Assembly (NCBI GenBank): GCA_004369085.1
Contig: ML210403.1
Location: 1,902-35,539 of the forward strand
Length of the DNA stretch: 33,638 nucleotides
From: Coprinopsis marcescibilis
Taxonomy: Eukaryota; Basidiomycota; Agaricomycetes; Agaricales; Psathyrellaceae
Direction: 5' to 3'
Shown here: piece by piece, positions 918-33,297 of the stretch
Layout of the letters: each line of letters starts with the position of its first letter
How positions within the stretch are numbered: position 1 is the stretch's first letter
The notes under the pieces: generated by a model
What the model saw: the letters and a program-made list of their open reading frames with translations, nothing else
What the model was told of the DNA's origin: nothing
The model's database searches: none
Program-made: the position numbers and the translations under genes

Positions 918-920
918 CAA
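918..920. repeat. Target-site duplication, left copy (CAA)
   Basis: CAA at 918-920 is repeated at 33295-33297. On the LINE strand it is TTG, codon 20 (Leu) of ORF2. Keeping one copy and removing the insert restores the reading frame across the junction, so this is the duplicated target. Confidence 0.8.
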
Positions 921-938
921 CACTGGAGGCATGATGGC
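921..938 (+). repeat. Left terminal inverted repeat
   Basis: It reads CACTGGAGGCATGATGGC from the tip inward. Against the right tip (CACTGCAGGCAATGGC) it matches 15 of 16 bases if a 2-base gap is allowed. The similarity fades beyond about 18 bases. Confidence 0.75.
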
Positions 939-1009
939 TGTTCACCACCCCCGAAAGGGTCGAATAAAGAGTCCACTACACCAACCCATTCCTGCTCAGT
1001 TCAATACTA

Positions 1010-1606
1010 AAAATATTTGATGCTTCATGGTACAGGAAATGTCCATAAGTTCATAATCAAATAAGTTCATTTTAAACTACTTGACAGAGTAAGAAAAAAG
1101 AAATTGAAACACAATGCCATTTCAAACTTGAAATCACCTTTTGCAAAAACATAAACCTTAAATATCTAGCATTATTTCCTATTTCAGTTTTGGAGACCCC
1201 AAAGGAACTATTTTCCCTGATAATTCGAGATGCACTTTTGGAGTACCGTAACATAATCTTTTTGTCGTGTTTCTTGACTCTCGAAAGAACAAGATGCCTC
1301 AGCCTTCAACTTGCGCTGACGTCAGCACCAGATTTGGTCAGCGACTTGGGGCGCGGACTGACCTTGGCCCGTCAGCGCGGTTGGGTGGTGAGACAATCAC
1401 AATTGAAAGACAAGATTCAGTTAATCACTCAAAGCAAATATATTCATACAATCATAAAATCGAAAATTGCATAAATCGTATATACACCCACGACTGGTTC
1501 AGAGTGTTGACTTGATGTCGTTCAGTTTCAACGCATCGCGTGGTGGTATGCGAAGAAACTTCGCGACCCAAGTCGCGGCACAAACCAACGATCGCAAAAA
1601 CCCGAC
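1010..1606. other. AT-rich left subterminal region, no gene seen
   Basis: From about 1010 to 1260 the sequence is AT-rich, with a short direct repeat (AAGTTCAT at 1048-1055, and again at 1064-1071). No ORF with coding character or splice structure was found. It probably belongs to the transposon's subterminal zone, where transposases of this type often bind; that role is inferred. Confidence 0.4.
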
Positions 1607-2480
1607 CTAGGCTGCGCGGATGGCCCGATATGCAACATAGAGGGAGCTGATAGAATGTCCGAGAGAGGTCATGACGTGCATATAAACTGTAAGAAAGTAA
1701 AGTACTCACAGAAAAAAGATGATAGCAGTCATCAACTCGGGTAATGGGCAACCATCGCCTCCAGAGTTAATCGTAACACTGTACCTAGAATTTATGTTGG
1801 GGTTCAAGAATCAGACATGAAAAAGCATGAGTACATACCTGTAACGGTCCTGAGCAAAAGAAAAAGAAGCGGAGATGTCAGGCCACTGTGCCATTTGTCT
1901 GAGAACGACGCTTCTGATTATGGGTGGGTGGACTAGCAGAGAACTTAGAAGGTTGCGGGTTCTGATTTTGGGAGCTGGTTGAAGGACTTGCAGACGGTGG
2001 AACAGCGAGGCGATGAAATCGTGGCGAAAATGGGAGCTACGTGGGGAACAGGGAGGGATGGGTAAAAAGAAAGGATTTATCCCATCTTAAGCTAAATGAG
2101 TCGGCAGTTCACACCTATATCGATTTGCAGTAACGGATATGGCTCAGGGGTTGGACGACAGTGGACACTGGGGGTAATGACCAAAACCAGAGTTTTAAGG
2201 AGCTTTTAGCACTGTGTAGGGTGATACAAGGAAGTAGGAACATACCTGAAGTTTCCTTCGCCGCGCGTTCAGTGCTTGAAGAGCGTTCAGAGCTGGGAGC
2301 GGTGAGGTGCTGGTTGAAAAGGTCCAGGTTGGGGGGAGTGATGGCTGCCAGGTGGCGGTCTAAAAATGGCACTTGCTTGTGGCCAAACCAAACGACACCA
2401 GTGGCCACGCCGGACGCAAGTTCTGTGATGAAACGCAGGGCTGTAGCTTCGAAAAAAAGGCGACATAGGCTGTAGGGCGC
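1607..2480 (-). CDS. Candidate multi-exon gene, model incomplete
   Basis: Three stretches on the minus strand look like exons. The first, about 2480-2246, includes the peptide GVVWFGHKQVPFLDRHLAAI and ends at a good GTATGT donor. The second, about 2072-1870, is Pro/Ser/Gln-rich. The third, near 1764-1607, can be spliced to a hydrophobic tail ending LSLYVAYRAIRAA then a stop at 1607-1609. The tail recalls VYVGYRAARAVRG near the start of the long membrane gene at 10385, so it may be a related or truncated membrane protein. I could not join the first two exons in frame without guessing, and found no convincing start codon. Function is unknown. Confidence 0.3.
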
Positions 2481-2569
2481 AAAATAATTAACTATACGGC
2501 GAGAAGAAGCGGTAAACTGGATAGTTTGCGTGAATTGCACTTCATTTGTCCAGACAATCTAAGGTGCTT

Positions 2570-3099
2570 CAGCCGTAGCCCCACCCTCCAATCCCAATCT
2601 TCCGCCTCTGTGTACGCAGCCCTTCATCTACTATGCGGAAGCCCGTACATTATCGTGCTCCCTCGATACACATGTGGCAAAGACGGCTCCTACTTCTCGA
2701 AAAGCGACGCCTGGAACGACCGCCCTAGGATCGACTTCAGTTCTGCCAAACGATCTGTTCGGCCTAATCGACGCCGTCAAGAGTGGGAACACCTCCGGAT
2801 CAAATTCAAGGCCGACGGTGGTTGCTGAAGCTGCCAGCTGCAGCACTCCCCCAAGTGTGGGGACAACCTCGTTGGCTGACAATGGCCCCTGGCCACTATT
2901 TATTGCGACATCCCTGTCGGGCTGGCGTGCTCCTCCAACTTTCTGTTAGCTTCCACAGGATTGCGGATGATCAATCACAGCTTACGTGTATGTTGGCTAC
3001 TCGTGTAGCACCCGAGGACTATCTTCCAACCAAGCGTCCGGTAATTTCCAATGCTTTGAGCTCTGCATCAGCGGTCGTCCAGCTCAACTACATAATTGA
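2570..3099 (+). CDS. Possible two-exon hypothetical protein, low confidence
   Basis: A plus-strand frame is open from about 2570 to 2944. It encodes a Pro/Thr/Ser-rich segment followed by a less biased one (LPNDLFGLIDAVKSGN). Splicing at a GTTAGC donor (2945) to an ATCACAG acceptor (2980) continues the frame as SYVYVGYSCSTRGLSSNQ and so on to a TGA at 3097-3099. There is no ATG at the front, so an upstream exon would be needed. Another acidic run (NEDEDEEEP) is encoded just after, near 3150. This may be a real gene whose ends I cannot place, or chance. It overlaps no recognised family. Confidence 0.22.
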
Positions 3100-3480
3100 G
3101 TGTGCTTATTCCCCGTCCACACTCCAGTACGGCTCATTCAACTCCGAACGAAGACGAGGATGAAGAAGAACCGGCCTCCTTATATCGGATTTGTTGGGGC
3201 ATCGATCCACTTGCTTCCGTATTTGAACAGGGTATCGAATGAGGTTACAATGTGGTCGAAAGAGCACGAGGTGTTGCACTTAGCAGAGATTAGCGAGAAC
3301 ACAGCGAAACCAATGCTCAATACAGTGGTCATTGCCAAATTATGAGAGCATGGTTAGGCGACGGTGGTCTGGAGGGCGCCGCGCATCGAGCTGTGAAACG
3401 AGATTAAGGGCAGATATGAGGTGCAATTTGGTTTACAAATACAGCGAGCGGAAATCAGGCACCGGAAGCGATTGATCTAG

Positions 3481-5078
3481 CTATCGTGGAAGATCCTCAG
3501 GTTTCCGCCCAAGCAATTCGTCGAGGGTGCTCAGTAGCCCCAGCCCCATCTTCCATCGCGTTGCCTTTAGGGCCACCATCTCCTCGTATTTCACTGGATT
3601 TGTCTTGCGAAGTGATTCTTCCGTTTGGAAATCATTGTCTACAAATCTGAATAGGCCCCCAGGGCAATACTGGGTGAAAGAAAACCGGGTTTGGCCCTTC
3701 AAGACCTTGGTGTTTGAATGGGTGAGCGTCGCAGAGGGCATGAGCACAACCGACCCTGATGGAAACTCGATGACAAGCTTGAGGTCAGGTAATACGAGGT
3801 GGCCGCCCTTCCTGTGGTTGAAGTTGCCCAGCGCATGGATCGTGCACCACCCAAACGGGCAGTTCATGCAGTCGCGGTGATCGACGGTGCAGACTTGGGT
3901 GCCGAGATTGAAGGCCGCACGAGGGAACACGCTTTTACAGAAATTTCTTTGAAGCTCGGGCATCCTTGTGAATAGGGCATCGAGTTTTTCTTTATAGTAT
4001 CCATATAAGCGAGGTGCCCAAAGCGAAAAGGAGTCTAAGCTCTGGGAGTTAGATGGCAAGAAGGGCTGGGGAGGGGGCAGGGCACTTACAGCTTCCAAAT
4101 GTGGCCAACCGTTGGACGTCTTTGTCTCTAAGCAGCCGCTCCACAAGTTCAACATCGTGGTGCCTGAGATTTGCCGGCTTCTTGCTGCCTTGGCCGTACG
4201 AAGTCCCAACGTTGACTGCAGGGAATCGGCCGCGGCGGTGAACCAACTCTGAGCGCCTGAAGTTTCTGGTTTTGCCGAGCAACTCAAATAGGTGGGCAAC
4301 GTTGTCGCAGGACTGGCGGTAGCTATCGCCGTCGATTTTGGCCATGAGGACCATGAAGATCCTCTCCGTTTCTGGATATAGAATGGGAATCGTGGTACTG
4401 AGTGATATGAGATAGCTATTTAAGTAAGATGGTAAGGGGGGACTTACCTAGCATCCCATTCAATTAAAGTATATCCATCCTCCAAGAGGTCTTCGAGAGC
4501 ATGCTCCTGCACGCCCATCTTCTTCGGGTTTTTCGCGCGATACCCGCAGCTTGAGGACGGAAGATCTTCTAGTTTGATGTTGCATGCGATAGAGGATGAT
4601 TCTGCGCGATGGACATGGTCGTGGACGATGACTGGGTCGGGGTATTGGCCAAAGGCGGCGACAAAGGTGCTGCGTTTCGCTTTACGATGTTCCTTCTTGC
4701 GACGCTTTCGCTTCTCCTTGCGGCTCTCGGAACGGGTGGGTGGCAACGGAGGGTGTTCGAGCGGGAAGACGGCATGCCCGCTCATGTCTGGGACCTGATC
4801 TTGAGTATATTCTTCGTCGTCACTATGCACCTCCTCTCGCCCTCGCTTCAAGCCGCACTCATCCTCTGCTTCCATATGTTCATCCGAGTCGAGCTTGATG
4901 GCTTCGTGCAGCAAAGGAGATAGCCTGAAGAAAGAGGGGCATGGCAAGGGCGAAATTTTAATGGGTTCGGTGGTGTATGCCTTGCCGGAGCGTAGGGTTT
5001 CCGGCTGCATATTTTGCGTAAACATCAGTTTGGATGGTAAGATAACGGGACTAGTTTACATACAGTGGGATAATCCAT
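3481..5078 (-). CDS. TET/JBP family 2-oxoglutarate/Fe(II) dioxygenase
   Basis: It is predicted to oxidise 5-methylcytosine (or thymine) in DNA. The spliced model has four exons, 5078-5064, 5004-4448, 4397-4090 and 4034-3481. Introns are 50-59 nt and the product is 477 aa. Start choice: ATG at 5078 gives MDYPT spliced to PETLRSG, and an internal ATG at 5025 is less likely because it lies in the intron. Residues about 1-190 are acidic then Lys/Arg-rich and probably disordered. The C-terminal half is the double-stranded beta-helix. It has HRD at about 345-347 (iron ligands His and Asp), a GGHLVLPDL strand near 369, the distal iron ligand His in THSN at about 398, and the 2-oxoglutarate-binding Arg in TRFSF at about 409. 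All key residues are present, so it should be active. Such genes are expanded in basidiomycetes and often travel with transposons. The nearest gene upstream ends at 5791, and two 173-bp repeats lie between. Confidence 0.88.
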
Positions 5079-5135
5079 ATCTCCAGATGCCTGGGCCTTA
5101 GGCGGAGAGCCGAAGTGAGGGAGAAATGGGTAACC

Positions 5136-5481
5136 GTAGGTGCGCACTCGAGTTAAATGAATACACTGGCGGGTAGTGGGTCTTGAACGGGTCGCCCGGT
5201 AATCGCGCTGCTCCTGGAACGAAGTCAAACGCAGATACCTTATGGCGTTTTGGCCCTGAAGCTATAAGAGGAAAGAGGAGGACCCAGGGCGGGAGCCGAG
5301 TGGAATATGTAGGTGCGCACTCAAGTCAAATGAACGCGCTGGCGGGTAGCGGGTCTTGAACGGGTCACTCGGTAATCGCGCTACTCCTGGAACGAAGTCA
5401 AACGCAGATACCTTATGGCGCTTTGGCCCTGAAGCTGTAGTATAAGAGGAGGAGGACCCAGGTGAGAGCCGAGCGGAAGAT
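5136..5481. repeat. Tandem duplication, two units of 173 bp, upstream of the TET/JBP gene
   Basis: Unit 1 (5136-5308) and unit 2 (5309-5481) share long identical blocks, for example GGAACGAAGTCAAACGCAGA at about 5215 and 5389, with scattered substitutions and small indels. The start of a third, decayed unit (AGAGCCGAAG) is visible at 5106. The array lies just 5' of the dioxygenase start and 3' of the F-box gene, so it may act as promoter or terminator. No coding frame is kept in both units. Confidence 0.85.
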
Positions 5482-5790
5482 GTAAGGTCTTGCTTTTCTT
5501 TAAAAACGGCGGAAGTCCGATCGGGTCGGATATATGCGATCTGGGGTTGTTTATTCCGATGATGGCAGAAAGCTGCATTAGGTTTAGCTACTCAGTCTTG
5601 ATTCATTGGGACACCTACAATCGGAGTGGCTCCCTTTTCGCACAGCAGAACCTGATATTTTGGGTATAGCGGGAGTTTCAATCTTCGAACTAGCTTCATC
5701 CGCTGTCTTCGACGAGGATACGGTAGCCCGTTTAGCTCTGCTCTCAGTGGAGTGCTAGACTCGGTTATGCACACGGTGTAGGGATACTAT

Positions 5791-8700
5791 TCACATAATT
5801 CGATAGCTTTGAAGAAGGAATATTTGTAATCCTAACCCCCTAAGAAGATGTGGGATATCGTCACCCCTGACTTCCACCAGGCAGTCGCTGGCATTCTCCC
5901 ATGGGAGCTTGAACACAATTTGTTCGAGCCTGCTCTCCTCCTTCAGAACTTGCCATCGAATGATTTCTGCAATCTCCCGCTGAACGATGAGGTCTCGGAC
6001 CGAATTTGCGTAAAGTGATAGTTTTGTCAACTTTGGCGCGAAATTGGTGTGGCCACGATCACGTATCCAACGAACGAGTTGGTTGAAGGCCGCTTTATCA
6101 GGTAGAATAAGGAGGTCGACGTCTTGCATGCCGGCGAAGGAGAATAAGCGTGGCGTAATGGTGGCATATGAGTCTTCTACATCGAACATGACAGTCTTCA
6201 CAGTCGAAAGTACCCGCTTCATGGCACTAGCAAAGCTGATCCAAGCCCCATTTTGCATCCATATCGCTTCAGCCGGGAGTGGTTCCACTGAAGGCATATG
6301 GCCAAACGCGTAATGCCAGAACGTGAGCGCAAATGACCTCCGGTGCTCCCCTCCTGGAGGAGAGCACGTGTAAAGAGTCATTTGCTCTGCATGAGCACCG
6401 AAGTAGCAGATGCCAGCGGGCTCCCAGTTGATTAGATCAAAGCATGAAGCCATGTATGCAATCGTTGCGGGACCTAACAGCCGAGATTGAGGTCCTGTGG
6501 ATTCTTGACCAACATGCAAGCGAACATGGGAAGCGTTGGGCAATTTGAGGGCCTGAACAAGGCTGTAGACTGCAGTCACATCTGCGTGGAGATCGAGATG
6601 CTCGAGAAGGGGGAGATTCGTGGATGTGGAGATGCTTGGGGGCGTCAGCGGGCGGACGCAACCTCGCAAAGTGAGCGAGACGAGTTTCGGCAAGCGTTTC
6701 AGGATGTCCAGCCAAAACGAAACGTCGAGAGGCTCCCGGTGTAACTCTTGACGATAATGTTGCTTTGCCGGCCTCCCAAACGACCCATCTGTGACTGAAA
6801 GCGTTGTGAGTCTGCAGAAGCTTTCAAAGCAATAGGAACCGCTGGATACGCTGCCCGGGGAAAGACAAGGCCGACTGCCACTACCGCTTGAGGGCAGAGG
6901 AACACTAGGGAGTGCAAATGCACAGTGAGAGACGGAATGAATCTCAACACCGACAATCCAAGATCTATAGGAGTCAATTCGAAGGCTGGAGAAACGGTAG
7001 GCATTGAATAGAATTTCGCTTCTTTTGAATGATATGGATTCCTCGCTCCCCCTTTCTTGGTATTGCTCTTCGAAGCAGACGTGTAGATTCTTCATTTGCA
7101 GGCTGTCGTCCACAGCTGGGTCCTGCGATTTCGATAAAGCTGCGCAGAGCCACTCCGTAGGTGCACGATCAACTTCCAACACGCACGCCCAAAGGTGTCG
7201 CCCATTGTTGAGAACTTTATTCCATTTGCGAGACACCAATGTGAGGTTGAGAAACGTGGCCGTAGCTGCCTTCCATTCCATCGGAGTTCGGTTAACTTTG
7301 GGGTCGACCACAACAGCGGCAATGGCCAGGATAGCGTGATCGTCCAATTCAAAAGAGCAAGCAATGTTGCGGAACTGGATGATATTGCATCAGAAATGTT
7401 TCAGGCAAAAATGTGCAGATGCAGCTTACCAGATGCGCCCGCGGGGGAGAGGGATCAGTGCATGGTAAGGGTAAGTATGGTTGGAGATGGGATTGTATTG
7501 CCCCGACCAAGGGGTGTAAGGCTAGGAAATCTTCTGCAATGCCTTTGGCAGCTGAGTTCGCGAGGTCTTCGGTGAGGTCTTCAGTGAGGGCTTCAGTGGG
7601 GTCTTTGGTGAGGACTTTGGCGTCTAGCTGTTCTTCCGGTACAGATTCCAGCTGTCGAAAATCCTATAATACGGATATATCAATGCCTGTGTTGCCCAAA
7701 CGAAGCTTCAATTACCTGTGGTAATAGGTCTGCCCTAGTGTTATGCATCGTATCGGATAGTGCTTGGCTAACCGAGGCTCTGAGGTCCTGCAATCCGTGA
7801 AAGGTTGGTGTTTGGTTTTGACGAAGTAAAATATCCATACCTGATTGAAAATAATCCCTTGAAAATCATAATCTGGTGTCTAAGGGGCATGCATGAGGAC
7901 AGGGAGGAAAAGGAGGGAGGGGAGGAGAGATTCAATCCTACCTGTTTCTGCCGATGATTTGAATTGTTTGCATTCAAAATGAAGCCCAGATCCTGAAGCC
8001 GTGGATCAGATGGGTTTCGTAGTTTGAGCAAAAGACCTTACGGAGTTACTAGACGGTGTCCGTGCCCATGTCCTTAAACGTTTCTAAAGAGCACGCATCA
8101 TGGAGTGTAGAGAGTAATATATAGGCAGGCCTACAGGCGAAGGACTAGTCGAGTTACTCAGTGTTTCACCGAATCTGACGTCGTCAAAGCTAATTGTCGT
8201 TCGCACGCATGGTACATAAGACTTCGGGCTTTGGAAATCGGGGGGGTTCCACAAGCCTAAGGGTCGCTGGGCATGGAAGAAACGTCAGGGCCAGTTCCTG
8301 AGCTTCCATTATCTCTAGCTGAAGTCAAAGACTTACAGACCTTGTGGAACCGGGTCCATCTCCCATCGTCCCTTTGGGTTGAAAAGCCGGACTGGCGGCA
8401 TCCCAAACGCTTTTCAAATCCTTGTCCTTCATTTTTTGATTGTCTGGAGGGAAATCATTGTCTTCGCTGCTGCCATAGTCTGGTACCTGATTCCCGCTCT
8501 CGCGATAGGCCCATGCGCCACTGTCGTTGGGTCCTTGAGTGTGATCGTATGGAGTTGGCTAAGTGGATGAGTTAGCAACTACAAAGATATAGAGACTGGG
8601 ATATTTACCGAACGACGTGTCTTCTCCGTGGAAGCAAAGGCCCTGAGGCCCTCATGTTGGCTAGACCCTACACAATCACCTTGAGAGCTGCTGTTGTGAG

Positions 8701-10385
8701 CTTCTTTTCCGAAGGTACCGTCATGAATTGAAGTGTTGTCGTCGCAAGTGTCTTCTTCCCCTGCAGATGCATCGTTGATGCCATCGTCAACGACGACAAC
8801 ATCTGCAGTTACTGTTCCACAGGCATTTTCTCCCAAGTCGCCTCTCCCGCTGCCTTCCTCTGCTATTGCCTCCGCTGGAGACATACGCCCACTGGGTTGA
8901 CGAGAAGAGCTTGACAACCTCGCATTGACGTCGTTATCTTGCTCTTGGGTTGACTGCGGAATGAGAGTTGAGCCCAAAACGTTAGTAACGACGGCCTAGG
9001 AACGCACAGAGGGTATTGTTGGTGAAATCGGTTCTATTTGCACTACATCTTGGGCGTCTTCATGCCGTTCATCTGACCGAAGAGGCGCCATGCCGTTGTG
9101 CTGTTGGGGAAAGGTGGGCTCTGTGGCTCCTGAGCTACTGCTTTTGAGTGCATTGTCATCGTCCTTTTCCATAGGCGACGGTGCACTTGCAGCCGCTGTT
9201 CCGCAGTCATTGTCATTTTCTACCGGTTTGGAGGCGTTGCTTTCAACTGCACCGTCGTCGTCATCCTCCATACGCAACGTTAGACAAAGGGCGCAGTACT
9301 GCACAGCGGACGGCCTCACCGAATCTCCAGGTCGCGCCATACGAGGAAACAAAGTTTCGTGCAGCATGGCTGCAAAGTAAATGAAAGCGCCAATAGAGTC
9401 GCCCAGCTTGTCCTGAAGATAGTTTAGAATTGGCACATGAGGTATGAAATGGGAGGGACGTACCCAGATATGTAGAAGTTGGTTGCTCAGTCCTTCATGA
9501 AGATAATCTGGGAGTATGCGGGGCAAGATTCCGTGCAACCATTTCTCGGCGAAAGGGAAAGATACTTGAGAGAATATAAAAGCCTGTAGGGAGGTAAGCT
9601 GCCTTGTACTACACAGAATTTGTAAAAAATGAGGTACTTACCCACAAAAAGCGCGGTAAAAGCCACATCTTGTAATTTGTCAAATGGGTCAGCCATCGCA
9701 AGGTCAATTCTTCCAAATGGTACGAGATGAACGCCTAGTCGAGTTTAAACAGCGGGCCATGGCGATGGGAGCTTGACGAACCCATAAAATGATCCCGGAA
9801 AAGCACGCCTTGTCTACGAGTCGACTGACGAAATACAGCCATTGCGCCCAGCCCTTTAAAATGTGAACGAGGGGAGGCCGGAAAGCAGCGTTGAGAAAGC
9901 AGCGGGCTGCAAAGGCCTTGATGAAGAGATAAGCTCGTTCAGATCAGGCGGAATCAAATGAACATACCGATATCTGCGAACGATACGATGCCTCAATGTC
10001 GCTGACTCCCGGTGTAAGTCGCAGCTGAAACAAGATGAATTGGTTTCAGGAAGTCTATTGTTGAGATTTGCTTACCCATACGTTATCCAAACCGGACAAC
10101 GCAATCAAACCTGCACTCTGAAAAGACAATCAGCGATTATTCCGAGAAACGGAGGCTACACAGTCACCTTTATGTGAGGCCAGATACGAAAGAGTGTGAG
10201 CCCATCGATAATCCCGCGTACTGCTCGTGCTGCTCGCTACCAGACCAGTTGAACCAAGTTAGATGGAGTCACAGTCGGAGAGAACTACGCACATATCCAA
10301 CATATACCAAGACCGCGACAGCAATCAGAATAATAAGGACGATGATTGTGACTTCAAGAACCCTGGAAATCAGGTCTGTAGCCAT
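5791..10385 (-). CDS. Long multi-exon gene: N-terminal membrane protein joined to C-terminal F-box/LRR-like part (may be two genes)
   Basis: I can chain 17 exons from ATG 10385 to a stop at 5791, about 1244 aa. Every intron falls in phase 0, so each exon is a whole number of codons. Exon 1 has one strong membrane helix (TIIVLIILIAVAVLVYV). Exons 2-8 are Trp-rich and amphipathic. Exons 8-10 (9412-8337) are acidic, Ser-rich and probably disordered. The last exon (7374-5791) resembles the back half of an F-box (LTLVSRKWNKVLNNGRHLW) followed by leucine-rich segments such as LPLLEHLDLHADV, as in the large agaricomycete F-box families that recruit SCF ubiquitin ligase substrates. The weakest joins are 8336-8267 and 8134-8084, and the second intron contains a TATATA. 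The F-box part may therefore be a separate gene starting near 8070, though no clean ATG was found. The role in the element is unknown. Confidence 0.55.
7556..7620 (-). repeat. 12-bp degenerate tandem repeat inside coding exon
   Basis: About five copies of a GTGAGGTCTTCR-like unit (plus strand) lie in the 7663-7430 exon. On the minus strand they encode repeats of the type Leu-Thr-Glu-Asp (LTKDPTEALTEDLTEDLA). The frame is kept because the unit is four codons long. Confidence 0.7.
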
Positions 10386-10533
10386 TACCACAAAGGAATT
10401 CGCGCTCAAAGGTCTGTCGGCGGGGGAGAATAAACGGTGGACGATCACAATTGTTTGAACAAGGCGAGTACAGCATGATAAGTAAAATGATCACTGATGC
10501 AAGAAAATGATGCGGAGAAAGAGTGGTGCCAAG

Positions 10534-16050: not shown

Positions 16051-16111
16051 TGCTCAGGCTGTTCAGGAGGGCGAAGGGTTGGGGAATAAATGCCCAGTTT
16101 TCCTTATTTTC

Positions 16112-22687: not shown

Positions 22688-22693
22688 TATAAA
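22688..22693 (+). promoter_or_regulatory. TATA box before the gene at 22744
   Basis: TATAAA, 51 bp before the proposed ATG. It supports transcription starting in the 22597-22743 gap, which holds nothing else recognisable. Confidence 0.45.
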
Positions 22694-22743
22694 GCCAACC
22701 CAGCTTACACTGCACAGAAGCATCTCGTCTGATATTCTTGGAC

Positions 22744-23599
22744 ATGAAGGAACCTAAAGTTAAATTCGCCAGCAACTCCTGAAGAGAAAGCCCGCACAAG
22801 AGTAGCAAGGCCCGGAAGGTAATCATCACCAGTCAATGCTTAAGAGCCCTGCCTGACGTTGTTTCTAGCATAGGCTCCCTTCGATGATCACCAAAACATT
22901 CCCGCTTGTATCTCAATCCGCTGTAAGTCATACATCCTGAACTCCAGTTCCGAGGACATAATAGTCGCTTCGCAGAAGAGCAAAAGAGAAACACCTTCTG
23001 TCGCATCCTCATCTCGTCATTCTACTCCTGCTTTCGACAATCAAAACACCGGTTATGACGATTCCACTGCTCAGGAAGGTGAGCAAAGTCATCTCAACAA
23101 TCCTTTCTCAGCTAACATGCCATATGCATGCCACAGGGCCACAGCTCATCCCGGATGCGCAATCGCAGAAGACTCAATCGCAAGATGAAATCGGTCGGCG
23201 AAGCCTTATGCAATCCCTCCTGCCTAAGCTGACATGCTGGACCACACAGGCGCACATTCCCGGCCCACCATACGGATGAAGTCGCACAAGATACGAAGCA
23301 TGAATGTTATCTTCCATGTCTTCCGCTACACGGGAAAGACAGGCGAACACCTGGGATCGCCGCACTCTTTCGACTCCACTGAGAAGCAAGTGAAGGAGGC
23401 CACCGCGGGCGATCTTTTCGTAGCAGTCTCCGGAAATCTGAAGGCTTTCTGGGTCATGAATAGCGACAACAAATGGCGCCATATCTCTGAAAAGGAAGCG
23501 CATCCGACCCTTTCTAATCACCAACTCCGCATTTCCCAAGGGAACCCAAGCTGGGTGACCGATAAGACGGGACGTACGTACGAATACAAGGGGATATAA
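22744..23599 (+). CDS. Small protein of about 197 aa, unknown function
   Basis: Proposed exons are 22744-22758, 22810-22818, 22874-22922, 22965-23078, 23137-23193 and 23250-23599. Without splicing, the ATG frame meets TGA at 22780-22782. Using a GTTAAA donor at 22759 removes that stop and leaves a 9-nt microexon, the weakest part of the model. The first half is polar and Ser/Gln-rich (SQKSKRETPSVASSSRHSTP) and looks disordered. The second half (MNVIFHVFRYTGKTGEHLG, AVSGNLKAFWVMNSDNKWRHI) is a compact globular segment ending DKTGRTYEYKGI. The donor GTCGGC at 23194 is also unusual. It lies between WD40 copy B and the transposase. No family is recognised. Confidence 0.5.
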
Positions 23600-23696
23600 G
23601 TAGATCGTCATGTGGTCTCTCTCGAAAATGGCAATATTTGATCCACCCATGTATATCTAACAGTACAACTTCTAATCTCCTGCCTGTTCTCCTGCA

Positions 23697-24125
23697 ATGT
23701 TCCAACGCTATGATCCGAGTCCCACAACGCTTCAAATCTTTCCCCACGAGCGCACGCCCAGCCCCGACTACGCATCCATCCCCACAATGTTGAAAGTATT
23801 CGCGCCCTCCTTAATCACTGGCAAGTCAAAGTATCTCGCAGTCACACATATTCTCAGCAATCCACGTCCTTCAGATATCCGCGCGCCCTGCAGCCCCCCA
23901 CCCGACGCGTATGGGCGCTCCGGCTCTGCACCGGTCATTGAGGCATTTTTCCCTTTCAGAAATGCCCATGACGCTCGTATGGAAAAACCGAAAAGGCCAT
24001 CTGGCCAGCGCGGTAAACCGAAAGAGCGAGGGTGGTCGCTTAGACCCACGCTTGGGTGGGTGGATGAATCATACAACAGGGTTCAGGTAGCAAACATACT
24101 CCTTCTGGACAAGGACCTTTGTTGA
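23697..24125 (+). CDS. Short Pro/Arg-rich ORF, doubtful
   Basis: An uninterrupted 142-codon frame begins MFQRYDPSPTTLQIF and ends VQVANILLLDKDLC, with a basic middle (EKPKRPSGQRGKPKERG). It begins 97 bp after the previous stop, on the same strand. No intron, domain or strong promoter is seen, and the antisense strand also has an open frame, so it may be chance. The stretch from 24126 to 24508 holds only the transposase promoter. Confidence 0.3.
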   Translation: MFQRYDPSPTTLQIFPHERTPSPDYASIPTMLKVFAPSLITGKSKYLAVTHILSNPRPSDIRAPCSPPPDAYGRSGSAPVIEAFFPFRNAHDARMEKPKRPSGQRGKPKERGWSLRPTLGWVDESYNRVQVANILLLDKDLC

Positions 24126-24372
24126 CTATCCTCAGGAAAGTCTCCATCCTATCTGTAAACGCAATCTAGACATGAGGGTCCGTTGGAAGCGACAGACTCA
24201 AGAAGCGAGGACTAAATTCAAAGAAGCAGTAAATAAACCCTTCGCCATCTGGTTTCCACGTTAACATTCTCTTTCCCGCTGCCTCTTTCAGGTCTTGCGC
24301 GAACACCCTTTCTTCGCGCTCTATGATGAATCTTGGCCATGCGAAGATTTCGCCGATATTTACTTGGGAAAC

Positions 24373-24378
24373 TATAAA
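24373..24378 (+). promoter_or_regulatory. TATA box of the transposase gene
   Basis: TATAAA, 131 bp before the ATG at 24509. It would place transcription start near 24405. Confidence 0.45.
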
Positions 24379-24508
24379 TCACCTGCTCAAGCACATTGAT
24401 ATCATTGATATGTAATCGATCTTGTTTCATCAATTTCGGCATCCGGTCGTTCTTGTTCTGCTGGAGCCTCGTTGGCTTTGTTTTCGTAGTCTTGTTCACT
24501 TGCATGAT

Positions 24509-27500
24509 ATGAAGCTGTGTAAATGCGACGTCTGCAAACTCCAGAGTACCTTCGATCCTGTAACCGGTCACAAGGTACCTGGTGCTCTCATATCACGCGC
24601 CCAACATCGACGACACCAAACGGAACAGCAAACACGCACCGCACAAACGTTATGCGATACACAGTTTGGAGTCTCGGCGACTAGTCATCCCACTGCTTCG
24701 CTAGCTGACATCTCCAGAAGGCCCATCGAAAGGGGTAAGTGACCGTACATTGATACTTGTTGAGCATTCGTAGCTTAACTCTTTCAGATCAAACTCCTCA
24801 GACTCGTCTGCGTAAATTGGAGATTGAGTTTAGCAGGAAGCAAGCAGAATTCGCGGAGAGCCCTGGAAGCTACAACGTCATCTTTGAAGAACCGGATCGC
24901 ACCAATCCTCAGAAGATGCCTTCTGTTCCGTTCGGGAAGAATATGGCCTTGGTGGCGTATAAGGATTGGCTGCAAAGTGCGGCGTATAAAGCAGGGGACC
25001 TGCAGGTTGATGGCCCGGTTTCAATGCAGAGCCGAGCATCTTTCCTTCAGCTTATCCAATCGGAAATTCAGTTTCTGAACAACTCGATTTCCCGGGCTTG
25101 GGAAAGTCAAAAATTTCGACAGATGCAAAATTCAAATCCAAATTCTTCTCTACCTCGAGTCATTCTTCTCGGTATGTTTGACGCACCCATAAACGTAAAC
25201 AGTAGCTTATTTCTCTCCAGATACCCCGATGGATCTCAGCCGATTTGCAGGCCCTCTTCTTGTCTGCCTCCTCACAGTTGTCATCCTCAGCATCATCCCA
25301 GGGGCCTCACGGGAAGCATCGAACTTTAATCTCATCATGTCCCGCATCCTCGTCACTACAGGCTGCATCACATATGTGAAGAACAGCGGGCTGTCGATTC
25401 CCATCACCGATAATCCGCTGTCACTCCTAGGTGGGGACAAATTGTGGCCCAAAGACATTCGCACTGCCACTGCTGCATTGGAGTTGGACTCAGAAACAGT
25501 TCGGTACACCACCTGTGAAGGCTGTATGGCCATACATGAACCAACTTCCAATGGCCAGTATATTTCGCACTGTTCATTCAAACCCTTCGAAAACTCGCCC
25601 GCCTGTAACACCCCCCTCACTAAACCATCCGCAGCCGGGACAGGGCCCCCGGTTCCTATTCTCCCGTACCTTCACCAACCAGTAGAATTGTGGCTTAAAC
25701 GCCTTCTATCTCGACCGGAGGTCGTTTCGGTGATAGAAAAGCATTCCGAAAGTTGGGGAAACGGACGTACGCGTGCAGATATGTCGGATATTTTTGATGG
25801 TGACGGCCTTCGCAACCTGAGGGCAGCGGACGGATCCCGGTTTCTATCCAAGAAAGCCGGCCAACTCCGACTTATCTTTACTCTCAACATTGACTGGTTC
25901 AACCCGTTCGGGCAGTCCCACAAAGCGATCAGTATCGGAGCAATATACTTGGTCTGCCACAACCTCCCCTTCCACATGCGGTACCGCACAGAAAATGTTT
26001 ACCTTGCCGGAATCATACCAGGTCCTTCAGAGCCGAATTTTGATCAGATCAATCACTTCACCCGACCAATTGTCGATTCATTCCTTCGGCTGTGGGCTCC
26101 GGGCGTGTTCTTTTCGAAGACCTCCAGACATCAATTCAGCTTCCTTGTTCACGCGATAATAATCGCCCTTGTTTGCGATCTTCCTGCTGCTCGGAAAGCT
26201 GGGGGTTTCATGGGACACAGCGCCAAAGTTTTCATGTGCTCTTGCTGCGGAACGACCAAAGACAACATTAAGGACACATTTGCCAACTTTCCCGACCGCT
26301 CCTGCGCCGACCATCGAAAGGCAGCCGAAGAATATCTCAATGCCTGCGATCCAACGGCGCGCAAAGTTGCCCTGGACAAGAATGGAGTTCGGTGGTCAGA
26401 ATTCCTTCGCCTGCCTTACTGGGATCCATCCACATTCTCGGTGGTCGATACCATGCATAACCTCTTCCTCGGGAACATCAAGCGGCACTGCAGGAATGCT
26501 GAGATCTGGGCAATGGACGCAGCAGCTTATCCGAACGCGAATGTCAAGGTGCACTCAAACGAGGAACAGCAACGAGAAATCGACAAAATCCACAGAATAC
26601 TCGCAAACGGGGCACTCGATTCGCTCAGCCGCAATACTCGAAGAGGTTATCTGGCCGAGTTTGCACGATTGAACGGAGTGCCTGTTGCTGCACAAACTCC
26701 CACTAAGCATGACTATATTGCAAGTCTAAAGGCCTGGGTATGTTGCCATCTCTCTTCTGTGACTGGATATTGATGCCACAACCCCATCATAGCGTGAAAA
26801 TCTTGAAGTAAATATCAACATCCAGAAGCCTGAGCCAATGGCCTTCCCCGTCTTCGACTTTCCCATGCCGCCTAAGTCCCAGCCAATTCTTAACGGCAAC
26901 ATCATCGACAAACTATTTGAAGACATCGATCAAAGAATGATTATGCCGAGCTGGGTTAGCCCACCTCCTCAAGACCTCGGAACCAAGAGGGGTGGCAAGC
27001 TGACCGCGGACCAGTGGCGCACCCTAGCCACGATTTTTCTCGTACTAACTCTGGTAAACCTTTGGGGCAACGGATCGCCGGAGTTGAAGGATCGGCTGGA
27101 CAACTTTATCTCGTTAGTTATCGTAACGAAATACGCCACCAAGCGTAGAATATCCACCCAAGATATTGCAATCGTTGAAGAGAATCTCGTCAAGTACCTG
27201 GAAGGACTCAAAACTATCTATCCTCGTCACAACTTCACCATCAATCACCACATGTCTTTGCATCTGCCCCAGTTCTTGCGACGCCTCGGACCTACCCATT
27301 CGTGGTGGACCTTCCCTTTCGAGCGATTCAACGGCGTCATTCAGCAAATTAACAATAACAGCAGGCTAGGTGACATCCCGTGCTCTACTTGATCTACCTA
27401 CCAGCGAACTGATGGCATAGAATCTTACAGGTGAACTTGAAGCTACCTTCATGCGAACATTCTGCCGCATTGCCAACTTGAAGGCCCTCTTTGCTGGAAG

Positions 27501-28160
27501 CCTTGGCCATGATCCAGTTCTGGACGAAGTCAGACAGATCTTTCAATCGTCCTTCGGGGACAAAAACGAGGTGACCTTGCGTCAGGATGTCTCCGTGGCC
27601 ATCTCCGACACCACTGAGGCCATCTGGGATGAAGCAGAGCCGATAAGAAAACTCGACGGTGCACTTTTCATCCAAATAACCGCGCTCGTCAATGCATTAT
27701 CTCTTAACGCAATGCACGACGACAGTGTCCAGGACATTTCTTTGGTGACATTCCGTGGATTCAAGTACCAGCCTTCGCGAAACCATACGGCAAACTCCCA
27801 GATACAATTTCGATTTGGCGAGCAGATTCTGTTCGGGCAGATCAATGATATCTTTGTGCACCGACATACTGTTTTAGGGGGCGACCGATCAACTGTTGCC
27901 CATTATTTGGACATCGTTGCATACCGAGAGATTCCTGAGGCGGAACGAGTGGGACACCCTTTTTACAGATATCCCGAATTAGGAGCATACGTCGCAAGAG
28001 GATTCTTACCCGAAAACACCATCATCCGGCTTTCAGACGTCATTGGCCATGTTGGTGTACTATGCATCCCGGGAGATGGCCGTGTCTTGCTGCCTTTGGC
28101 AAAGGTAAGGATCTATGCGATCAGTCCTGGAATTGTTTATGACCTTTGTTCTAGGACTGA
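24509..28160 (+). CDS. Plavaka-type (CMC/CACTA-like) transposase
   Basis: Six exons (24509-24734, 24788-25171, 25221-26737, 26793-27369, 27431-28104, 28155-28160) give 1127 aa in frame. Start ATG 24509 gives an N-terminal zinc finger: CKCDVC at 4-9 with His at 33 and 36. The catalytic RNase H-like domain follows. It has IDWFNPFGQSHKAISIGAIY (Asp about 428), NLPFHMRYRTENVYLAGIIP, CDLPAARKAGGF (Asp about 523), a CSCC zinc pair near 544, VVDTMHNLFLG (Asp about 613), the KLTADQWRTLATIFL helix and SWWTFPFERFNG (Glu about 886). These make up the DDE-type site expected of this family. Which Asp residues coordinate metal I infer from family pattern. The last intron leads straight to GAC TGA. Reading through it would extend the frame to 28470. 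No stop or frameshift interrupts the model, so the enzyme may be functional and is the likely mover of the whole 32-kb unit. Confidence 0.88.
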
Positions 28161-28990
28161 CCCATCTGTTAACGTCAAGCGATTGAAATTGGCGACGCCT
28201 TCTCCGCCGCTTAAATTCCAACACGCTTACAACGCTGGACGACGAATCACACAATGCTGCCAACGGGATTTGGATCGTGTTGCCACGGCAGTAGTGGAGG
28301 CACAGAGAGAGGAGGAAGGCGACGAGGAGTTTAAGAGTGGGAAGGGGAGGAGTAGATGTTCGGCCATAAGACAGTGCATGCAATACAAAAACAACTGCAA
28401 CCTCACCCTATCTGCAACAGGCGTCAACGTCATTCTTTTAACTCAAGAATGGAATACGGGAATGCGATGAGATTTGCGATCTGGCACACAAACGATGGCT
28501 TTCACTACGTTTTCAACTTATCTCGACGCACGTGTTTAATTCAGGTCGATCAACTGAGAACAGATGCAGTTTGCAGGTTTGACCTCAGACCAGGGGTTGC
28601 CAAATAACTGCTTCGGTGCTCTTGCCGACCAAGTGATGCTTTGCCAGTCAGCCGCGGGTGATGTTGCACCTGCTGCGCCCTCTGGTTGTAATATCCGGAA
28701 CACAAGTAAACAATACCAGCCCAGCCCTCCATTGGGTTTGGAGGACTCGAAGGACCTGAGTGATTGCATCACTTGCCACCAATCCTCCTCCTTGATACTC
28801 GAAGTGGCTGCTTCGTCGAAGACTACCTCCATGACAGGCTTCAACCTCTCTGAAGCATTCAGAGTCAAAGCCTTAAATCCCGTTTCGAAACACCAGGCTA
28901 TTGCCGAGGTTTATCTAACCTTGACTCTCAGCCAGGCACCAGACTACGTGAAGCAACTCATCAGTCTCATCTACAAGACCTAAATAGGAT
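28161..28990. other. Unassigned stretch after the transposase
   Basis: A 139-codon plus-strand ORF (28564-28983, starting MQFAGLTSDQGLPNN) and an overlapping minus-strand ORF both exist. Neither shows a domain, splice structure or promoter, and I cannot choose. The first 300 bases are probably transposase 3' sequence. Confidence 0.3.
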
Positions 28991-30410
28991 GCATTGCAAA
29001 GCTCGGGGCCACCAAGCGCCAGTTCATTCACCCCCGCCACATGCTAGAGCTCGTTAGTTGAGACTGTGCTCGAGGTGAGTGTCTGTCCGTCCGTAAGAGG
29101 ATTACGGAAGCTGATTGTGATTCCTTGTAGAACTCGTCCATCTCGGGTGGTGCAACGTTGGCCGGATTGTCGAGGGCGTTGAGGATGGCCAATGTGCTTG
29201 AGGAGCTGTGCAAGTTGAATAGGGTGCTTAGAGCCCAGTGGGAGGGGAGACGAAGCAAGATTCTGACGACGGTATGGGATTTGGCTATGGCTAGGATCAG
29301 CATGTGTTTCTTGGACTTGTTGGGGTATTCACACCAAAACTTTGTTTGGCAAAACCGAATGCGGTGTGTAGAGGGCTAGTGTTGTCGATTGCTCAGACTT
29401 TGCCGGCTTCGTTGATTGGCCATGAAGCGCTCGGAAAGGTATGTCCGGATCGTGCTCTTCCGGAATTCAGGCTAATGATGGGCGGCACGGTAGATGTGTC
29501 ATCTTATTATTGATCCGTCGACCGAGGTGCAGAAGATGGCGTTTCAGCTGTTAAAGACTGCAGCGGAAAGGAGAACGGAGTATCTGGTTATTGAGGTTGG
29601 GGTTGGGATTATTGGGGGCGAAAAGGAGGAAGAAGAACAGGCTGAGCCTGAGCTTGTGGAAGAGAAACCGACGAAAGGGAAAAAGAAGAAGCAGAAGGAG
29701 GGCGAAAAGAAGGATGACCAACCTGCGTTGCTCCCTGTAGAGTTGGTGAATATTTTGCAGAGGGATGTTACGTTTGTCCCTGGCACTGGGGAGGACGAGG
29801 AGAAAACAGGTGACTATCTTCGGGTGTTTCAGACTAGTTGGTAACCGGGGATGGTCATAACGTGTTCGGGTGGATGTTGGCGTGGTTGTTGCTGTTTGAT
29901 TCGTTCAAGAATGCGGTGGGTGCACTGGGATATTTACGAGGTGTGGCGTGATTTGACATTGGTTTCAGAGTTTCAAGGTCAAATCGATGTATATGGAACA
30001 ACTGTGCAATCGACCTGGTCGGGTCGAGATTGTCGCCGACGATCGTCAATATTCTACATCTGGGCGAAGGACCCGGAAAGTTCAGATCTGGGTGGTGGAT
30101 GAGTTTTATGTTGAATGTAAGTGTTCTAGTGTTTGGTTGATTGGTGTATTGGTACTGACCTATGTGCAGACTATGAGGCGTCGATGGAAAGTAGCATCCC
30201 GGTGCTTGCAGCGCATTTGTATTACCGGGCGTTACTCTGTGTTCCGTCGCTGGTGCATAGCTGGGTGTTGTACTGCAAGGACCGGCAGCTGAATAACGCG
30301 ATTACGAGCATGACTTCGCAGTCATTCTCTCCGCTAATTATTGGCACATGTGCGGTCACCTGAAGGGGTTGAGCTGACCGGTGATGGGTTGACGGTGAAT
30401 AACACACAGT
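28990..30410 (+). pseudogene. LTN1: Captured, broken fragment of the host listerin gene
   Basis: Pieces in several frames spell the C-terminal HEAT-like part of listerin, the E3 ligase that tags nascent chains on stalled ribosomes. In order they are ATLAGLSRALRMANVLEELC, VFTPKLCLAKPNAVCRGLVL, CHLIIDPSTEVQKMAFQLLK, NVFGWMLAWLLLFDSFKNA then SFKVKSMYMEQL, VPVLAAHLYYRALLCVPSLV-like residues, and LAHVRSPEGVELTGDGLTV. Introns remain in place with good borders (about 29066-29130, 29440-29491, 29924-29967, 30120-30170), so it was copied from genomic DNA and not from mRNA. Frame breaks near 29055, 29320, 29835 and 30340 mean it cannot make listerin. The N-terminal bulk is absent and I found no intact RING finger downstream. 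Confidence 0.85.
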
Positions 30411-31875
30411 ACGCAGCGCACAACAGACAGCGCACAACGCAGATTCCCCACCAAGTTCCAACCCGTCGTCCACAGTCGTCCAGATTGCGGCTGGGTCAAG
30501 CATATCTAGCAAATGTGTATGTGTGATCTGCTCCAATGTGTGGAATGGGACCGATTTGAACCAACATCAACGGCTTGCGGGTGTTCAGTGTAAAAGCTGG
30601 CCGCCGGTTATCTCCGGTCTACCCACTCGATATTTGCTTGGGAGGTCCTTGCTGAACGTCGGTGTCTGCACCTGGCGCTCTCGAGTGTCAACGTCGGGCA
30701 CCAGTTTCCGTCGTGTGTACCTTCCCCGGCAGGATCGTTCTTCGTCGAGCCTTGTGGCCTTGTGCCTTTACGTATATGCATGGAGCTTGCTGGAAGGTAA
30801 TCACGATCCCTCCGTTAACATAGTGCTCGAAACTTACTTTGAATGACCTGCGCAAGAAGGGCCACTCATGACGGAAAACCTGCGGTGCGGCAGTACGGGT
30901 CTGGCTGCCGCCGACATCCTTTCGACATCATACGCTGTCTCTCATCGAAGTTTAGACCGGAATCGAGGGATTCTTTCCCAGTAGCGGCCAGACTTGGGCT
31001 GGTGCACAGGTATGAGCAAATCGCCGTGTGCTGCACGTTGCTGGCAGTCGAAGGAACTCACTGAAGAAATTTTTGAGGCGTGCCCTGGTGCGTTCCAAGG
31101 CGGTCAAGAGAGGCAGGGCGGAATGTCGATTTGGAACAGCTTCGAGACCAAAAGTCGGCTCGGAAGTTCCAGATCATGTGGCGAATCGCTGTAGGCTCAT
31201 GCAGCATCGCGACTGGGAGAGCGTGTGGTGGAGAGGAATTGAAACAGCAGAAAGGAGGGGGGAGAGAGAGGCATGGGTGTTGGGAACATGGGTGTTGGGA
31301 ACATGGGTGTCGGACGCATGCACCTGTTAATGCTGCCCCAGGTGTTAGGGCAGAGGCATTAGTTGGAGGTCGGATGTGAATGTCAACATCTATAGCGGCG
31401 ACGGCGACGTCACTGCTTTTTGGAATGGGTCGGCTAGAATTCGCTACACGAGGACCGTCTGAAGCTGCATCGTCGAAATCAACGAGCAGCACCGGCTTAG
31501 GTGAAAAGGGGAGGGGTCGTCCATCACACGACCAAATTCCAGCCCCAATTCGAAGGCGAGGTTGAGGGGTGTTGGCGGACTAGGGCCGAAGTTTGTGGCT
31601 TGTACAGGGCGCACAGCGGGACGTGAGGAATTCGTAAGGGCAGCTTCGCGAACGAGCGACGTCCGAGATGCAATCAAAGCATTTGTTTTCAATTCCCGCC
31701 CTATAATGGTCGAGCTCGCGCCGCTCGGCTGCAGCTTGTTCTTCATTTCTTACCACATCTTACCTGCTTTCAACCCTCAAACATCCTTGCCATAAAACAT
31801 TCTCCGACACAGGTACGGCTTAGCCGTCGTATCCCTGCCACTGCACTCACCGAAAACCCTCAATCTATCCTAGCT
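30411..31875. other. Unassigned stretch, possibly more captured host DNA
   Basis: It has only short overlapping ORFs on both strands, without recognisable domains. A CVCVICSNVW peptide near 30516 recalls a zinc-binding Cys pair but lacks the rest of a RING. It contains the 15-bp repeat at 31272. It could be decayed flanking DNA taken with the listerin piece. Confidence 0.3.
31272..31316. repeat. 15-bp tandem repeat, three copies
   Basis: CATGGGTGTTGGGAA at 31272-31286 and 31287-31301, then a diverged third copy CATGGGTGTCGGACG at 31302-31316. Confidence 0.9.
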
Positions 31876-32315
31876 ATGGGTGTAGAGAGCATGCCAAACC
31901 CGAACGCGAAGCAGGACACGGACGTTCCTTGCAACAACAAAAGCAGCAGCATCGATTACTTCGAGTTTATGATCAAGATTGGTCGGGAGCCGTGGGGGTA
32001 TGTATCTGCTACATTGTCCTGCACGTCGCCTGGGAGCTCATAATCCTCAGTTTCGAGTGCAGGGATAAGCGGCTACGCGTTAGCCCTCCAGACAACGCCA
32101 CATCGAAGACCACCAGTTCCCCTATGCCGCCTCATGATCCTCGACTTGTGGTGGCAGGAGTGGCCGTATGGACTGCTGTAGTAGTCCTTGCCTGTAGGAG
32201 TGCCATCTGCCCTGGCCGTTCCCCCCTTCGCCTAATCTCCGGCGGTCTTCCAGCAGCACCACTGTCTCGCCCAATTCGCCGTCGACGCAGCTCTCAAAGG
32301 TCCCGCAAGATTTGA
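31876..32315 (+). CDS. Small single-pass membrane protein, unknown, perhaps captured
   Basis: Exon 1 from ATG 31876 (MGVESMPNPNAKQDTDVPCN, then SSSIDYFEFMIKIGREPWG) is joined through a 53-nt intron. The donor is GTATGTAT near 31996 and the acceptor CCTCAG at 32050. The frame then continues to a TGA at 32313-32315, ending in a strongly basic RPIRRRRSSQRSRKI. A hydrophobic segment LVVAGVAVWTAVVVLAC suggests one membrane helix. The splice is phase 2 and keeps frame, which favours a real gene. It follows the listerin fragment on the same strand, so it could be part of the same captured host segment. I recognise no family. Confidence 0.45.
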
Positions 32316-32639
32316 CTGCGCGCTCCAACGATCTGCACCTCTCGTCATTCCATCCGCCATTCGCCCCCTATCCCGCTGCTTTCGTCTCACGTCGCTTTTC
32401 ATCTCGCTTTCTATCGCTCTCTTGCTTCTCGATCGCCTCTGCTTTGCTGGATGTGCAACCGAGTCGGACAATCCGCGCCCCGGACAGCCAATTAACGCCG
32501 CCCTCGAGGTTCCCATTCGGCCCTTATACCCTTCGTTTTCTCCGCCCACCAAAATCCATGGAATCTTCATCTGTCTATTTTGAGCGATTTACCTGCTTGT
32601 ATGTACGATATACTCTTTGCTATTGCGTTGCCCAGATAT

Positions 32640-33270
32640 CGTAAACTTACTTACTTTACCATGTACATCTTTCTTGACCTTGGGCTTGAGGGTTGTCGAT
32701 TATCTATGATTAATCGATTTTCTTTCAGGTTTGTGATTACCTGCAGGTTCGGATAAGATTCATTTGTGATTTCTCTGATTATCAGAGCTCAGATAAGATT
32801 AGTGTATGATTATCTTGTGACTGCGCTTCGGCGGTGACGCGCTGATCGCCAACGCCAAGAAGTGCTTTTCAGCGCTGGCTCTGATGGAAATGCCAGGAGA
32901 ATGATCCGGCCATGTGCCGAGTTCGTACACAAGAAAAGACTCTCGAAACAATGGATTTCATGACCAGTTTCTCACTGGTGAAGTAACTCCCAAAAAGGCT
33001 TATATTTTGATATACTAAGGGAAGTTTTATTAAACTACAAGGAAACTATTATTTGAGGTATTTCCTGGGCCAATCAGTTATCCTTAACCAGCATGTTTAT
33101 TGAAAGGAGAAATTAACATGAAATATAGCCGAGAAGTTGTAGTTTTGCAAAGTCTTTCATAGATACTTCTATTCTTCAATGATTACCTGTTTCCACATGG
33201 AATTCCAGTGCCTTCAACCTTGCATGAGACAGTTAATTTTCACACAAATCAAACATTGATTAGTTGGTCA
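32640..33270. other. AT-rich right subterminal region with short repeats
   Basis: No gene is supported. GATAAGATT occurs at 32752 and 32792, TGATTATC at 32776 and 32807, and the two kinds are interleaved around a near-palindrome TTATCAGAGCTCAGATAA (32779-32796). Such subterminal clusters are common transposase binding zones in CACTA-type elements. That use is inferred. Confidence 0.45.
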
Positions 33271-33278
33271 CGAGGGAC

Positions 33279-33294
33279 GCCATTGCCTGCAGTG
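33279..33294 (-). repeat. Right terminal inverted repeat
   Basis: Read inward on the minus strand it is CACTGCAGGCAATGGC, the counterpart of the left tip. Confidence 0.75.
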
Positions 33295-33297
33295 CAA
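33295..33297. repeat. Target-site duplication, right copy (CAA)
   Basis: It matches 918-920. A longer shared string, TGCAA, is present at both junctions, but the first two bases belong to the right transposon tip if the ends are to be CACTG at both sides. Confidence 0.8.

Follow-up and report, generated by a model that had tools for sequence, protein, structure and literature searches.

Two halves of the second open reading frame (ORF2) of a long interspersed nuclear element (LINE) lie at opposite edges of a 33,638-bp stretch of the genome of Coprinopsis marcescibilis, which raises the question of whether the DNA between them is one transposable element or an assembly of several. The stretch, referred to here as the window, comprises bases 1902-35539 of contig C258 (ML210403.1) in a genome of 36.3 Mb and 448 contigs. 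On the right the window reaches the contig end, on the left it is preceded in the contig by 1,901 bases of N, and it contains no N itself. Our analysis indicates that the interval is very probably a single, and probably autonomous, CACTA/EnSpm transposon of 32,374 bp.

Of the ORFs of at least 110 amino acids (aa) listed for the window, 70 in number, 29 distinct ones were scanned against Pfam. The limits of the WD40 gene and of the Gly/acidic-rich ORFs were judged by eye, as was the gene structure of the ORFs at 8579-10500. Positions without a contig name refer to the window, and the features are collected in Table 1. Literature searches found no paper on transposable elements of Coprinopsis marcescibilis and none on the capture of host genes by EnSpm elements in fungi.

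Table 1. Coordinates of the features in the window
Feature	Position	Strand or length	Remarks
Whole CACTA/EnSpm element	921..33294	32,374 bp	Terminal inverted repeats, target-site duplication, empty site in LINE copy
Left terminal inverted repeat	921..938	+	CACTGGAGGCATGATGGC
Right terminal inverted repeat	33279..33294	-	CACTGCAGGCAATGGC on - strand
Target-site duplication CAA	left copy 918..920, right copy 33295..33297	direct copies	
3' part of interrupted LINE ORF2 (endonuclease domain)	1..917	-	PF14529 8.8e-11, PF03372 5.2e-8 (3-941)
5' part of LINE ORF2 plus upstream	33298..33638	-	Reaches contig end
TET/JBP-type 2OG-Fe(II) dioxygenase	3481..5025	-	Exons 5025-4448, 4397-4090, 4034-3481; 479 aa from presumed start, no stops
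173-bp tandem duplication	5136..5481	+	Just upstream of TET gene
532-aa F-box-like ORF	5791..7389	-	PF12937 E 0.013, below cut-off; one genome relative, in C377
ORFs shared with C377	8579..10500	-	No Pfam match in two ORFs scanned
Segment absent from C377	10501..21251	10.75 kb	Read as deletion in C377, through an ORF
891-aa accessory protein (P0121 as annotated)	10537..13438	-	Relatives on 7 other contigs
WD40 beta-propeller gene	14700..16060	-	PF25174 2.1e-8, below its cut-off, ORF 15005-15415
ORFs of unknown function, Gly/acidic-rich part	16371..19090	-	Nothing above cut-off in three ORFs scanned
Gene, beta-propeller-like by eye only	20243..22590	+	Crosses C377 breakpoint at 21252; no Pfam match in two ORFs scanned
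CACTA transposase	24506..28470	+	5 exons, GT-AG introns, open frame of about 1,248 codons, start presumed
Captured host LTN1 (listerin) fragment	29057..30399	+	Intron retained; 89% to C97:17198-18590

Insertion site and ends of the element

When the flanks are joined they read MSHTAREIRVLTFNVARNYLHVDALL..., the LINE frame is restored, and Leu20 is followed by His21, exactly as a preliminary description of this DNA had noted. An uninterrupted relative of the LINE is present at C97:2691-3608 (85% protein identity, three internal TGA codons). The joined flanks align with it gaplessly over the junction (283 of 319 positions identical), and the full match reaches 87% identity over 1,264 columns, 3 positions of which are gaps. 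From this gapless empty-site alignment it follows that the LINE came first and that new DNA was then placed exactly between two copies of CAA, so that the earlier proposal of one precise insertion into LINE ORF2 is borne out. The boundaries 918 and 33297 proposed at that time are exact, but they include both CAA duplicates, the element itself being 921-33294.

The two inverted ends, CACTGGAGGCATGATGGC and CACTGCAGGCAATGGC, which both start with CACTG, agree at 15 positions with 1 mismatch and one 2-base gap, and none of 20,000 random end pairs drawn from the window scored as high. In 30 block-shuffled windows, however, a mean of 2.9 CACT pairs with a 3-bp target-site duplication (TSD) and at least 10 of 14 matches was obtained, the real window containing 1, which is the element's own pair. 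Because of this background, an end search independent of the LINE is weak, and the proof of insertion is carried by the LINE breakpoint and not by the terminal inverted repeats (TIRs) alone.

The transposase

The CACT-starting TIRs, the 3-bp TSD and a transposase with Transposase_21 and DUF4218 domains are all traits of CACTA/EnSpm elements and confirm the previously suggested membership in the CACTA/CMC superfamily. Transposase_21 (PF02992) is matched by the ORF at 25199-26773 with 62.1 bits (cut-off 28.6, E 5.7e-17) and DUF4218 (PF13960) by a later exon with 35.1 bits (cut-off 27, E 1.3e-8). An assignment to the Plavaka superfamily was rejected, as PF18759 reaches 15.1 bits against a cut-off of 26.3 and the CACTG ends are unlike Plavaka termini. 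A last intron at 28105-28154 was likewise dropped, since its omission keeps the frame open as far as 28470. The enzyme would bind the CACTG ends, cut the element out and join it to a staggered 3-bp cut in LINE ORF2.

A protein search of the genome with the transposase yielded 12 rows; besides the window and contig C377, ten rows fall on nine further contigs. The relatives score above 100 bits on C209, C75, C246, C343, C178 and C140 and are weak on C263, C233 and C372. The copies on C246 and C178 carry in-frame stops; the match on C140 has no stop and a 742-aa open frame.

A sister copy in the same genome

Contig C377 (17,548 bp) carries the DNA of 5788-30885 in the same order, minus 10501-21251, with an identity of 84-93% in the longer pieces and of 71-84% in a short stretch around 8648-9074. 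The missing block could be taken for a nested insertion into the window with a TGAYGC duplication, which was rejected as the breakpoint cuts an ORF; because the gap ends inside the ORF at 20720-21313, a deletion in C377 is likelier than an insertion in the window. That the interval forms one unit, as had been suggested, is thus well supported for 5788-30885 by the colinear C377, while for the outer 4.9 kb and 2.4 kb the evidence is the LINE breakpoint.

Stop codons interrupt the frames of C377: the F-box-like ORF has one or two, and the compared transposase exons have five (2 and 3 in the respective frames). Between the window and C377, omega, the ratio of nonsynonymous to synonymous change, is 0.53, 0.215, 0.063 and 0.38 in four transposase exons taken in their own frames, 0.34 in the F-box-like ORF and 0.24 at 23228-23596, and it is 0.94, with no sign of constraint, at 8999-9634.

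The TET-type dioxygenase

An AlphaFold2 (AF2) model of the 190-aa catalytic part of the TET/JBP-type 2-oxoglutarate (2OG)-Fe(II) dioxygenase has a mean predicted local distance difference test score (pLDDT) of 93.2, and in a structure search with this model PDB ranks 1-22 are all TET-type (NgTET1, CcTet, TET2, CMD1). H181, D183 and H234 are invariant and R245 is nearly invariant in 26 aligned proteins; by homology, we take these residues to be the HxD...H iron triad and the 2OG-binding arginine. D105 of protein P0001, which is annotated as Coprinopsis marcescibilis, is invariant in 39 sequences (HxD, not HxE). In sequence comparisons the family is more remote: the window ORF reaches 16.2 bits with Pfam Tet_JBP (PF12851), under the gathering score of 34.9. 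Of the 26 relatives, 11 match PF12851 at E <= 1 (best E 1.4e-5), and 14 match PF13640, a generic 2OG family (best 0.0044). When a profile of the family was compared with the PDB sequences, no TET chain, not even CcTet, appeared up to E = 10. A protein database search yielded 230 relatives, and the species named among the matches listed (120 of the 230) are presumably all mushroom-forming fungi. No DNA copy of the gene was found elsewhere in the genome.

In the parts of Kojima's 2025 survey that concern these genes (PMC12730594), EnSpm carriers hold TET genes of the PU type (Pucciniomycetes) or of the PE type, the latter with HxE, and the AG types are relatives of CcTET in Kyakuja and Zisupton. 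For the window gene the AG type was rejected, there being no detectable sequence relation to CcTET, and the PE type was rejected on the grounds of HxD instead of HxE. Judged from its sequence, the gene would therefore lie outside Kojima's three types, being set apart from AG and PE by the CcTET relation and the motif only.

Two further TET-type genes were encountered. One, at C247:19928-20845, shows 51% identity in its best stretch and has an open frame. The other, protein P0069, is listed under C. marcescibilis, matches the query at 79% over 37% of its length, comes from a 76,179-bp contig and was not found in the genome assembly, which may lack or mask its gene.

CpG decay

The observed/expected ratio of CpG is 0.91 in the element and 0.61 in C377. 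At sites with CG in one copy and TG or CA in the other, the CG is in the window in 336 cases and in C377 in 63. C-to-T changes in C377 outnumber the reverse mainly at CpG (343 vs 71), the corresponding counts being 121 vs 107 at CA, 90 vs 81 at CC and 89 vs 100 at CT. From 72 CpGs of the host LTN1 gene, a fragment of which is present in both copies (see below), the window lost 9 and C377 lost 29; at six of these sites both copies read TG/CA, so that the losses there may be shared. Methylation of CpG with subsequent deamination would produce such a trend, and the window copy has not been long exposed to CpG decay or has been protected from it. The open frames and the little CpG decay indirectly support the earlier view that the insertion is recent.

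Low ratios were also found in the stop-bearing transposase copies on C246 (0.48) and C178 (0.39) and in the C97 LINE (0.56). Values of 0.84-0.89 were obtained for the transposase loci on C209, C75 and C343 and for the loci of the accessory protein on C391, C259 and C75, and a value of 1.02 for that on C315. C140 breaks the pattern, as its transposase match has no stop and yet its ratio is 0.39.

The low CpG of several transposon copies (0.39-0.61) hints at CpG-linked mutational decay in an agaric; in the sections of PMC12730594 that deal with it, hypermutation is given as not detected in Agaricomycetes.

Capture of a host gene

The host locus on C97 encodes LTN1/listerin (PF22999 1.5e-30 and a UBC-like domain; two of eight ORFs scanned match), and the piece in the window matches PF22999 at 8.8e-8. 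A GT-AG intron, recognized by eye, is still present at about 29074-29131 with the host alignment running through it, which argues that genomic DNA rather than mRNA was captured. The capture is longer in C377, where it comprises 1588-5801 of the strand-turned locus and a 64-bp piece at 655-718, and its right boundary is nearly equal in both copies (5801 in C377, 5803 in the window). The capture therefore predates the split between the window copy and C377, and the window copy later lost the middle. In a three-way comparison over 1,332 positions, the changes confined to one sequence numbered 54 for the window, 75 for C377 and 30 for the host. Capture would have occurred by copying at the DNA level, as in the repair of an excision gap.

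Two observations may be added. At 29494-29840 omega between the window and C377 is 0.30 over 113 codons (12 synonymous and 15 nonsynonymous changes), which is unexpected for a dead fragment, the counts being small. In addition, the best LINE relative (C97:2691-3608) and the LTN1 donor (C97:17198-18590) share a contig, with about 14 kb between them.

The accessory protein and other cargo

Relatives of the 891-aa protein P0121 are encoded on C36, C75, C391, C259, C209, C385 and C315, and in the five loci fetched the match is covered by open frames of 876-936 aa. In a large protein database only two other proteins were matched, one of them from Ephemerocybe angulata. On two of the seven contigs the relative lies near a related transposase (about 5 kb apart on C209 and about 8 kb apart on C75), which makes P0121 a probable second core gene of the lineage; that it is a DNA-binding partner of the transposase is a guess. 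Its structural model has a mean pLDDT of 58.7 and gave 17 PDB matches up to E = 10, of which none reached 0.001, and with so poor a model and no match at that level the structure gives no claim as to function.

The ORFs beyond the transposase, the TET gene, the 891-aa protein and LTN1 are probably accessory cargo. The WD40 gene has no second copy by DNA search, and a search for host capture of this gene and its neighbours with the DNA of 13440-21260 gave only three short matches, all in one repetitive stretch. The large size and gene richness that had been described for the interval are borne out.

One element or several

Several observations weigh against the reading as one complete and active element. 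A search for further copies with the same two ends, which the preliminary description had called for, found none by DNA comparison in the genome, and not even one end has a second copy; the portions of the outer parts that were searched (900-2000, 3400-5100 and 30886-33320) likewise gave no second copy at the DNA level. The homology of C377 begins at 5788, 128 bp from the contig end, and stops at 30885, the last 412 bp being without a blastn match to the window below E 0.03. These limits could mean that the ends are different there, and C377 neither confirms nor refutes the ends of the element. The unit of 32.4 kb is represented by one example, because no second copy of the ends was found and the C377 match stops at 30885. 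Around the transposase of C209 no pair of TIR and TSD is present in the stretch read, and around that of C343 the best candidate reaches only 9 of 12. Matches to the ends with one mismatch occur in C377 (3) and C17 (2) and in none of eight other stretches scanned, and the C377 and C343 sequences each contain one CACT pair with a TSD at 10 of 14, which is the level given by shuffles. A clear subterminal repeat array of the plant style was not seen in 900-5800 or 30880-33310; the fungal EnSpm sections of PMC12730594 do not state such repeats as a trait.

Other points concern function. The window transposase is without 87 bp (at about 28375) that are present in C377 and, by eye, in a relic on C17 (C17:204608-204887). 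The stretch begins in C377 with a TAG in frame, and this stop, which by eye C17 has as well, was removed from the window by the 87-bp loss. Going by this comparison, the last 34 or so residues of the window transposase are probably derived and its full activity is not certain. Five of the seven other contigs with a P0121 relative have no listed transposase on the same contig. Finally, C209 keeps a high CpG ratio (0.86-0.89) and a tblastn search with the TET protein finds nothing in C209:1-16000, so that the CpG contrast between the window and C377 need not be due to TET.

The first alternative is that a smaller CACTA element entered the LINE and that later insertions, for example of a Kyakuja or Zisupton with a TET gene, brought it to 32.4 kb. 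The outer parts missing from the C377 contig and the TET gene without a DNA copy elsewhere would fit such a nested assembly, as would the Agaricomycete carriers of AG-type TET reported in the relevant part of PMC12730594, which are Kyakuja and Zisupton. However, the CACTA transposase is the sole transposase among the ORFs scanned, the 10.75-kb block ends inside an ORF and so looks like a deletion in C377, and the TET is not CcTET-like by sequence, which together make nesting unlikely.

We also consider it improbable that two CACTA ends flanked a host segment and moved it as a unit, most of the cargo then being relocated host DNA. The LTN1 piece is clearly host-derived, and hallmarks of transposons are missing from the WD40 gene and its neighbours, as are second copies by DNA search, which fits this explanation. 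Against it stand the single transposase among the ORFs scanned, the lack of any other CACT pair with a 3-bp TSD at 10 or more of 14 matches in the window, and the two further loci where a transposase has a relative of the 891-aa protein in its vicinity; moreover, C377 shares the order of F-box-like ORF, transposase and LTN1, so that any such capture would be old. That the LINE halves were connected to unrelated DNA by an error of assembly, which the proximity of the contig end and of the 1,901 N might suggest, is very improbable, since the window is free of N and such an error would not be expected to yield a perfect TSD, matching TIRs and a join that is exact to the frame. A single CACTA/EnSpm element thus accounts best for the interval.

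Comparison with known elements

EnSpm elements carrying TET genes have been published. As far as the fungal sections of PMC12730594 describe them, they have in common with the window element the EnSpm/CACTA transposase, CAC..GTG termini, a 3-bp TSD and an internal TET/JBP gene, and the window element differs in its HxD TET without a sequence match to CcTET, its 891-aa accessory protein and its host-gene fragment. The element is thus of a known kind, from which this TET, the size and the capture of a host gene would set it apart. Plavaka, a member of the CMCT clade with termini CATCA..TGATG or TGT..ACA according to the same source, shares a related transposase superfamily and the association with TET; the window element differs from it in termini and Pfam score.

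En/Spm families of Chondrus crispus with 16-20 kb and 4-5 ORFs are called significantly enlarged in the pertinent passage of a 2019 review (PMC6431247). They, too, are CACTA elements with several extra ORFs, whereas here 32.4 kb, a TET gene and a piece of a host gene are found; set against these families the size looks unusual, as does the combination of transposase, TET and host gene. In plant CACTA elements, Transposase_21 is listed with DUF4218 for ORF1 in the section consulted of PMC8978399. These domains and the CACT ends are common to both, but the accessory genes here are others, no TAD or DUF4216 match is present in the ORFs scanned, and no subterminal arrays were seen.

With the Starship giant transposons the element appears to share its nature as a large, cargo-carrying fungal DNA transposon, and it differs in having a CACTA transposase with TIRs and TSD and a basidiomycete host. 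The captain of Starships is a tyrosine recombinase (DUF3435), for which no match was found in the 29 window ORFs.

Implications

The locus provides a complete, base-exact and apparently intact element that unites a transposase with a gene of the demethylase type and a piece taken from a host gene, and a decaying sister is present in the same genome. The TET-type dioxygenase would most likely oxidise 5-methylcytosine on or near the element and thereby weaken or delay silencing by CpG methylation. We tentatively suggest, as a possibility that is less likely to be right than wrong, that a mushroom CACTA lineage has a TET outside the PU/AG/PE scheme as a core anti-silencing gene, that the TET-bearing copy kept its CpGs and the broken sister lost them to methylation-linked decay, and that the lineage picks up host genes as a cargo-carrying giant transposon of basidiomycetes.

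The CpG loss in C377 and some other copies bears on whether Agaricomycetes mutate methylated transposons. The locus also makes it testable whether a TET gene on a transposon shields its carrier from CpG methylation, and in what way large fungal CACTA elements acquire host DNA.

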